The position numbers and the translations under genes were made by a program. 33,130 bases of DNA from positions 1 to 33,130 of the forward strand of contig CALVWP010000027.1 of NCBI GenBank assembly GCA_944367495.1. Direction: 5' to 3'. Below are positions 22,063 to 23,630 of this stretch, piece after piece. The DNA is from an uncultured Bacilli bacterium (lineage in GTDB: Bacteria > Bacillota_I > Bacilli_A > RF39 > UBA660). Numbering within the stretch: position 1 is the first letter of the stretch; each line of letters begins with the position of its first letter. Under the pieces are notes generated by a model that saw nothing but the letters and a program-made list of their open reading frames with translations, made no database searches and was not told the origin of the DNA.

Positions 22063-22078
22063 GGCCACTACAGTGACC
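22063..22078 (-). other. GC-rich hairpin downstream of the surface-protein gene
   Basis: GGCCACT (22063-22069) and AGTGACC (22072-22078) pair with one G-T wobble around a two-base loop, or as a six-pair stem with a four-base loop. It is GC-rich in an AT-rich gap, lies 29 bases past the stop codon, and has no T-run, so it is not the terminator. Diversity-generating retroelements can have a hairpin after the variable region; that link is a guess. Confidence 0.45.
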
Positions 22079-22106: not shown

Positions 22107-23516
22107 TTACACTATTGTATATGGATTACTTTGTGTTCCCTCTCCTGATAAAGTAGTATCAGCTTTCAAAAAGACTACTGGGCGGAGAGCGTAAAGACTA
22201 TAGTCCGCCAAACTGCGGCCCACGATCGCAGACGAGCTATTCACACTGCCAACCCAAACAGTATCCGAACCACCGCCAGACTCGCGAGAAAAAGCATTTA
22301 TTGTCCAGTAAGATAATGAGCTTGCTGTTCCTCTATCTAATAAGTAATTACTGTTACATGCGCCACTATCACTAAATGAAGTTGAGGCTGATGTACATAA
22401 CGAATTAGTACTTGCTCTTAATATATCACTTACGTTAGCCAGTCCAACATTTCCTGCCCACGTATACATTTTTTCTCCTTCAATATTTTTCTCAATACTA
22501 TCATTTTCCTCTCCACTTTGATCTAATCTATCTACAGCGCCTATATTAAATGCATGTGGTGTCATTTTTTCTTTAGCTTCCCCATTTATATTATTTACAT
22601 AATAATCTTCATTTAAATATATTTTTATTGATGAATCTTCAGTTACTGTTCCTTTTTGACTTCCACTAGGGGAAGAAAATTCTCCTGATACTGCTGCATA
22701 TACTCCGCAGCCATTTGCTGGATTTGTACAATATGTATTATTAGCTGTACTTCGGTGATTAGCTTCATCAAATTGCCTATTAGCTAAAACATCGTTCCTG
22801 ATGATTTTATATGTTCCGTCTGTCTCTTTAGCTATGATTCTCCAAAGTTCATCGTTAAATTCAATATAGTTGTTGGGATTTTGTCCTCTATATATTAATC
22901 TTCCATTTTCATAACTATCTTCATAAAGACCATCACCCGATGAAACTATTTCAACATCTTGCCCGCCAATAGTTTGATCATTTCCACTTGGCACATTTCC
23001 ACTTCCACCACTTTGTCCATAATCTAATGTTACAGTAATTGTTGAGGTTGTATTCTCTGGCTGACTTGTAATACTTGGATTATAAGTTACTATTACCGTT
23101 AATATATCAGTCTCTGATGCTTTTAATTCATCTCCTTCTTCTATTCCACTTGTTTCAAAGGTTATAGCTTCATTATTAGAATTGCTTACTTTTATACTAT
23201 TAAGTACAGCATCGATATTTCCTTCATTAGCTACTGTTATATCATATTTCATCGAATCTCCCGGTGATACTAAGCTTGTTTTAAAAGTAGCTGTTGTATC
23301 GGTATAACTAGGTTCTATGGCATTACTCGCGCTCCCACTTTGTACATTACTTTCTATACCAGTTATTCTAACTAAAAAATTACTTGCTATATTAGATGTA
23401 CCAGTTATTTTAAGCTGTGATTGGAATGCCGCATAACCTACTGCCATTATTAAAAGCACTGCACACAGTCCCATTATTATATAATTTCTCTTTGTCCTAC
23501 TTAATCTTTTATTCAT
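22107..23516 (-). CDS. Secreted surface protein with a DUF6273/lectin-like C-terminal domain
   Basis: A 469-residue exported protein. Residues 1-28 are a signal peptide or anchor (basic start, then IMGLCAVLLIMAVGYAA). Residues about 30-165 are a beta-rich domain (LKITGTSNI, SPGDSMKYDITVANEG), a layout seen in TasA/camelysin-like or Ig-like surface proteins. A Gly/Ser linker (GQSGGSGNVPSGND) leads to a C-terminal domain with YIEFNDELWRII, KMYTWAG, LSYWTINAFS and ALRPVVFLK, like DUF6273 or formylglycine-enzyme/C-type-lectin folds. No LPxTG or lipobox is seen. The ATG at 23516 is preferred over a GTG at 23525, with AAGGAG eight bases upstream. The promoter spacer is mostly poly-T. Residues about 409-446 are encoded by DNA unlike the rest of the gene, rich in G and C and poor in A. 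The natural role is probably adhesion or host interaction, by inference. Confidence 0.8.
   Translation of the reverse strand: MNKRLSRTKRNYIIMGLCAVLLIMAVGYAAFQSQLKITGTSNIASNFLVRITGIESNVQSGSASNAIEPSYTDTTATFKTSLVSPGDSMKYDITVANEGNIDAVLNSIKVSNSNNEAITFETSGIEEGDELKASETDILTVIVTYNPSITSQPENTTSTITVTLDYGQSGGSGNVPSGNDQTIGGQDVEIVSSGDGLYEDSYENGRLIYRGQNPNNYIEFNDELWRIIAKETDGTYKIIRNDVLANRQFDEANHRSTANNTYCTNPANGCGVYAAVSGEFSSPSGSQKGTVTEDSSIKIYLNEDYYVNNINGEAKEKMTPHAFNIGAVDRLDQSGEENDSIEKNIEGEKMYTWAGNVGLANVSDILRASTNSLCTSASTSFSDSGACNSNYLLDRGTASSLSYWTINAFSRESGGGSDTVWVGSVNSSSAIVGRSLADYSLYALRPVVFLKADTTLSGEGTQSNPYTIV
22181..22290 (-). other. Candidate hypervariable segment (retroelement variable-region-like composition)
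   Basis: By hand count, these 110 bases hold 63 G or C (57 percent). On the coding strand they have 37 G, 26 C, 34 T and only 13 A, although A is abundant in the rest of the window. The segment encodes residues about 409-446, just before the conserved end, with Ser, Gly and Val runs and the final LRP. Third codon positions are almost never A. Adenine depletion in a short 3' segment of a lectin-like gene is what adenine-mutating retroelements leave. A recombined cassette from GC-richer DNA is the alternative. Confidence 0.45.
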
Positions 23517-23544
23517 TATTCTCACTCCTTTATTTTATATAACC

Positions 23545-23573
23545 AGTATAAATCAAAAAAAAAAAAAAAACAA
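23545..23573 (-). promoter_or_regulatory. Promoter with a homopolymer spacer, likely phase-variable
   Basis: On the minus strand TTGTTT (23568-23573), a 17-base spacer and TATACT (23545-23550). The spacer is 13 Ts followed by GATT; three more Ts of the same run belong to the -35, so the run is T16 (23555-23570). There is no TGN extension, so activity should depend on spacer length. Slippage of the run would turn transcription up or down. Confidence 0.6.
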
Positions 23574-23630
23574 GTAATATTTTTGAAAAATCGTTTTTTA
23601 AATAAACCTTACGTAAAGAAAAAAGAAAGC

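Follow-up and report, generated by a model that had tools for sequence, protein, structure and literature searches.

A very probable DGR variable region in a surface-protein gene of an uncultured Bacilli bacterium

In DGRs, a complex of a reverse transcriptase (RT) and Avd copies the RNA of an adenine-rich template repeat (TR), misincorporating opposite template adenines, and the resulting cDNA takes the place of a homologous variable region (VR) close to the 3' terminus of the target gene. The DGR of the Bordetella phage BPP-1 shares with the system described here a homologous RT, Avd, TR-to-VR mutagenesis at adenines and a hairpin downstream of the target, a candidate one in the case of the window gene. 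A different kind of variation is known from Mycoplasma hyorhinis, where the Vlp promoters carry a homopolymer between the -35 and -10 boxes. As in the genome studied here, the Vlp genes (cited in PMC11868660) are paralogous surface-protein genes in a small genome. Among cellular DGRs, that of Treponema denticola (TvpA family; PMC4891356) resembles ours in its surface-exposed targets with a C-type-lectin fold, in carrying the VR at the gene's 3' end and in having several targets remote from the RT/TR core. Cyanobacterial DGRs (PMC7517822) likewise possess many dispersed, remote targets with CLec domains, which were found, as here, by VR/TR homology at the 3' end.

We analysed a stretch of 33,130 nucleotides (hereafter the window) of an uncultured Bacilli bacterium with a genome of roughly 1 Mb, the assembly of which is 73% complete. 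On the sequence evidence presented below, we hold with high confidence that a short segment of this window is the VR of a remote DGR target, diversified by the known mechanism.

The adenine-poor segment and its gene

The segment, positions 22181-22290, had been singled out by its base composition, and the adenine depletion claimed for it (13 A in 110 bases, 57% G+C) proved exact. Its coding (minus) strand contains 13 A, 26 C, 37 G and 34 T, that is, 57.3% G+C, against 37.7% A and 35% G+C in the target gene and 26.7% G+C in the whole window. It is the most G+C-rich and A-poorest 110-mer of the window: G+C per 110 bases peaks at 58.2% at the segment and reaches 47.3% at the next best place in the 33 kb, and the runner-up in scarcity of coding-strand adenines has 19. 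Its location just before ALRPV was also correctly given, as it lies directly upstream of a conserved ALRPVVFLK in the open reading frame 22107-23525 (minus strand). Homology to the TR extends slightly beyond the segment, to 22178-22295. The features of the locus are the following:

22107..23525, minus strand: DGR target gene, 472 amino acids, start at GTG 23525 or ATG 23516
Predicted protein layout: N-terminal membrane anchor, Ig-like region at residues about 84-168, C-terminal C-type-lectin-like/DUF6273-like region at residues about 191-472
22178..22295, minus strand: VR core, residues about 410-450 of 472, aligning over its full length to the TR of a congener (genome G014, contig C66)
22170..22190, minus strand: conserved 3' end of the VR, CTCCGCCCAGTAGTCTTT, likely initiation site
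22063..22078, minus strand: short inverted repeat 3' of the stop codon, candidate stem-loop (z=-1.2)
23545..23550, minus strand: -10-like box TATACT, identified by eye in the sequence
23555..23570, minus strand: homopolymeric T16 tract separating the -35-like region from the -10-like box
23571..23577, minus strand: -35-like region TTACTTG, identified by eye in the sequence

By analogy with the BPP-1 DGR, 22170..22190 is likely the site where mutagenic homing initiates; CGCCCAG is common to the TR and nearly all VRs, and the TR homology stops just past it. The inverted repeat occupies the position where DGR targets carry a stem-loop, although its hairpin is weak, with a z-score of only -1.2; the G014 cassette has three strong hairpins (z=-7.6).

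The lectin-like nature that had been attributed to the domain holds at the level of fold, with moderate strength, and does not imply sugar binding. An AlphaFold2 model of this C-terminal domain of about 280 residues (191-472), built with 45 relatives as input, attained a pLDDT of 94.9 and a pTM of 0.92. The C-type-lectin chains 5mgt, 5mgs and 6inu match model residues 31-269 in VIA-align with Z 4.2-5.5, and the VR residues map to predicted strands (model 214-263). In BFVD, the best fold matches include predicted viral DUF6273 proteins, although the Pfam DUF6273 match of the window protein is below threshold; its Ig-like match at residues 84-168 is weak. Neither Mtd nor TvpA, DGR variable proteins of solved structure, is among the Foldseek and VIA-align matches listed. 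Altogether, the model argues with moderate strength for a C-type-lectin-like C-terminal domain. The best solved VIA-align match is 9qa6, the N-terminal part of an IgA peptidase of Thomasclavelia ramosa (Z 17.4, 3.0 A over 207), which corresponds to window positions 22107-22955 and which we regard as a shared surface-domain module, with no function implied.

Upstream, the gene has the arrangement TTACTTG-T16-GATT-TATACT followed by a good ribosome site. The same promoter module, with near-identical flanks, precedes five other paralogs with tracts of T15, T15, T16, T18 and T20, and the remaining paralogs have unrelated promoters. These differences in tract length are consistent with slippage, and the proposed combination of on/off switching with hypervariation is plausible for six genes, not for the whole family.

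Templates, reverse transcriptases and target classes

Within its own genome, the window protein (P0001) has 12 paralogs that share its N-terminal half, including one truncated where its contig ends. The complete paralogs fall into two C-terminal classes. Class A, ending in RPVVFLK, comprises the window gene (on contig C27), those on C55 and C34, and a diverged one on C15; class B comprises 10 genes with the C-terminal AVLPAITLSS, including two with a different N terminus. In total, this genome carries at least 14 VR-bearing genes, which at least two TR classes serve. The 3' end of contig C26 (L060, G000) holds a thirteenth copy of the target N-terminus that runs off the contig; it could join the contig of the C33 RT (see below) and hold the missing class-A cassette. 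Two class-B targets, on C57 (L055:3019-3127) and C8 (L059:8184-8290), have nearly one VR sequence, GYDGIVGRNFANA, despite differing N-terminal halves, as would be expected had gene conversion transferred the VR from one to the other. Behind each of the remote class-B targets C5a (L054:2654-2750) and C29 (L051:3267-3363) lies a 97-bp duplicate (92%) of the stretch just upstream of the class-B TR, including the inverted repeat TGTCAATTGCTTG...CAAGCAATTGACA; no TR matched there, and these copies are possibly cis-acting stem-loops of the targets.

A PF00078 search of the assembly retrieved four RT pieces on contigs C33, C43 and C5. They represent three RT loci, with a full cassette on C5, the TR of which serves class B, and two more RT fragments at contig ends. 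The C5 cassette has the order target-TR-MutS_I-Avd-RT (coordinates of locus L045):

10287-9010, minus strand: target
about 8860-8730, minus strand: TR
8443-8039, minus strand: MutS_I protein (PF01624, 1.4e-7)
8042-7698, minus strand: Avd (PF22296 bAvd, 1.9e-12; NF033474, DivGenRetAVD, 8.5e-16, below NCBI's cut-off)
7732-7025, minus strand: RT (RVT_1)

The MutS_I protein (MSL, PF01624) is known as an accessory component of DGRs (PMC10053308). In a phmmer search, the RT encoded by the homologous cassette of a congener hit the PDB chain 8ub7_A, which bears the label 'Reverse transcriptase', at 9e-30, and a PHROG reverse transcriptase family is matched at 8e-84. We take 8ub7_A to be the DGR RT of the Bordetella phage BPP-1. 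A phage origin of the DGR was considered and rejected: phage RT relatives are all less than 60% identical and IMG/VR matches at most 40%, so that the DGR looks chromosomal. Relatives located by name are MAGs of uncultured Bacilli. In several congeners the DGR RT genes are broken by frameshifts or stops (L154:1506-1519 in G010:C19, L125, L126, L133 and L136), and loss of the DGR RT therefore looks frequent in the genus.

The comparison of templates and variable regions is clearest in the C5 cassette, where, over a 97-base core, the VR and its own TR disagree at 22 of the 33 template adenines and agree at all 64 other bases (p=5.6e-14). Five of the nine other class-B VRs of the genome show 19-21 changes at adenines with one or two elsewhere; the remaining four, older-looking, combine 14-21 adenine changes with 5-18 at other bases. 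For the window VR, the TR used is that of another species, from the C66 cassette of G014, which has the same order target-TR-MutS_I-Avd-RT. This TR matches the window VR, the accompanying RT is 86% identical to the C33 RT of our genome, and the G014 VR departs from the TR at 23 of 36 adenines and 2 of 85 other positions. Against the same TR, the window VR has 24 of 35 adenines and 18 of 83 other bases changed (p=2e-6), the latter 18 being ascribed to species divergence. A class-A TR was not found in the 73%-complete assembly by DNA similarity or by a degenerate TR pattern (up to 3 mismatches), and contig C33 stops inside its RT gene, where such a TR would be expected. Apart from VRs, an A-tolerant scan of the retrieved loci with the window VR turned up just two sequences, the G014 TR and a chimera of TR and VR in G001. 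The latter (G001:C134 4103-4253, L093) was rejected as a TR on account of its VR-like body and 3' end, its leader being TR-like. It follows a class-A target in a genome whose RTs gave no match to the C33 RT at E<=1e-10, and it may represent a TR that a VR has overwritten or the remains of a cassette in decay. The expectation that the genome would contain a DGR-type RT and a template was borne out by the RTs, which are accompanied by Avd, and by one TR; the assembled TR, however, serves the sister target class.

Variation among relatives points in the same direction. As anticipated for a DGR, the segment is far from invariant: the 23 class-A VRs of the genus differ massively and preferentially at TR-adenine columns, with a mean entropy of 1.55 bits against 0.68 elsewhere (p=1.7e-10). 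A second signature, which needs no TR, comes from codon positions. Variability at positions 1, 2 and 3 is 0.99, 1.04 and 0.77 in the VR, whereas the remainder of the domain shows the opposite order (0.34-0.44, 0.35-0.36 and 0.71-0.83); in NNC/NNT codons of the VR the third base is fixed beside two highly variable ones (e.g. residues 419, 421, 429 and 438). This pattern is the footprint of AAY codons rewritten at their adenines. Repeated A-to-N replacement at such codons leaves the coding strand adenine-poor and G+C-rich, which explains the composition of the segment. The original reading as a DGR variable region is supported by the RTs, Avd and TR present in the genome together with the A-biased variation in relatives. 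The product would be a membrane-anchored surface protein with about 20 hypervariable residues in its C-type-lectin-like tip, which would bind variable ligands; the C33 RT would serve class A, mutagenesis would be active, and the T-tract promoter would switch expression.

A recombinase element in the reverse transcriptase genes

A 3.43-kb element separates GLPIG from NMTSQ in the RT of the C5 cassette; it contains three overlapping tyrosine-recombinase genes (L045 3744-4976, 4948-5931 and 5894-6940, all PF00589) and is bounded by terminal inverted repeats of 91 bp (97.8%). RIT (recombinase in trio) elements are defined by three adjacent overlapping tyrosine-recombinase genes within ~3.5 kb (PMC3414803), and by this architecture alone we class ours as RIT-type. 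The same codon, GLPIG^N in the GxxxSQ motif, is hit in five DGR RT genes from four species, in both orientations:

L045:3583-7043 (G000:C5): the copy in the C5 cassette
L047:1-147 (G000:C43): the contig opens with the end of the element and continues into the C-terminal portion of another RT
L151:2975-6423 (G024:C23, a congener): inserted the other way round; identity 99.8% across 3430 bp of element and 80-85% in the flanks
L152:3311-6744 (G023:C8): element 72% identical
L269:1932-5290 (G334:C21, another genus): first recombinase 47% identical

Given the element end and RT C-terminal part on C43, two of the three RTs of the window's genome are interrupted. The right junction has the palindrome TTATGTAAAnnTTTACATAA (TTATGCAAA... 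in G334), and a search for the right-junction pattern in 386 family genomes, a sample that excludes the other carriers and so is no substitute for the protein search, retrieved the window's own genome only, twice. Every one of the five copies found of this subclade sits in a DGR RT; RITs of more distant relationship (34-44%) lie elsewhere wherever their flanks are readable. In the C33 RT, GLGIG (GGATTAGGTATTGG) replaces the CC(T/A)ATAGG target, an alteration that may spare this gene from the element. The break at the same motif in the G010 RT, examined as a scar of the element, is an ordinary frameshift.

The element presumably integrates site-specifically, silencing the mutator RT; that its insertion is reversible is a conjecture. 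More speculatively, and as a proposal that we ourselves find possible but doubtful, this RIT subclade might use the GLPIG codons of DGR RTs as a dedicated integration site. If so, together with the homopolymer promoters, there would be three layers of control: promoter slippage acting on/off, DGR mutagenesis acting on sequence, and an element silencing the mutator, reversibly if its excision is precise. The site-specific interruption raises the question of whether a dedicated mobile element parasitises DGRs or serves as a switch for them. A literature search retrieved no report of RIT-type insertions in DGR RTs, which is weak evidence of novelty.

Alternative readings and relation to known systems

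A sharply bounded patch some 30 points above the G+C content of the window might have been acquired horizontally, or by recombination, from a G+C-richer organism, yet its flanks and invariant inner positions share about 72-77% DNA identity with orthologs in congeners, and the concentration of variation at TR-adenine positions refutes such an origin, to which we give next to no credence. We judge equally improbable that ordinary point mutation under diversifying selection on a ligand-binding loop produced the segment. High protein variability confined to one domain segment would fit this idea, which, however, predicts neither a fixed third base in NNC/NNT codons beside maximally varying first two, nor a non-coding A-rich near-copy adjoining an RT, and which is refuted by the 22:0 adenine specificity of the C5 pair.

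Unlikely, but to be taken more seriously, is that the segment is a true VR surviving as a fossil, in a strain where the class-A DGR has decayed and only ordinary drift or gene conversion among paralogs now operates. The missing class-A TR, the interruption of two of the three RTs and the nearly single VR sequence of C57 and C8 would all agree with this, as would the class-A paralogs C34 and C55, with 27 and 24 of 83 non-adenine differences from the G014 TR. Against it, the C33 RT is open across its 294 visible residues with GLGIGNVVSQ (GxxxSQ) and YQDD (YxDD) intact, and the window VR contains neither stops nor frameshifts and departs from that TR at fewer non-adenine positions than C34 and C55 do. 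With the reading as a VR of a remote DGR target, in which we place our confidence, this is a clean case in which base composition by itself pointed to a DGR that templates later confirmed. It shows that an uncultured Bacilli genome of roughly 1 Mb devotes at least 14 genes to a hypervariable surface repertoire. Since a metagenome survey of DGRs misses remote targets by its own account (PMC8144416), such repertoires are under-counted.

The kind of system is already known, multi-target cellular DGRs having been described in Treponema and cyanobacteria; the added interest lies in how large a repertoire so small a genome carries, in the putative homopolymer promoters that accompany part of it and in an element targeting the mutator genes. 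Compared with Treponema denticola, the present system has two or more TR classes, RT genes at three loci and 14 or more VR genes in about 1 Mb, a MutS_I gene in the cassette, an anchor plus Ig-like stalk in the targets and a putative homopolymer promoter in six paralogs. The cyanobacterial DGRs belong to another phylum, and the targets studied here share an anchor and Ig-like stalk instead of regulatory domains. Unlike that of BPP-1, the present DGR is apparently chromosomal, with the order target-TR-MSL-Avd-RT and several targets in trans. Finally, whereas Vlp varies by tract and repeat length, in this bacterium the tip of a putatively switched surface protein is also a DGR target.
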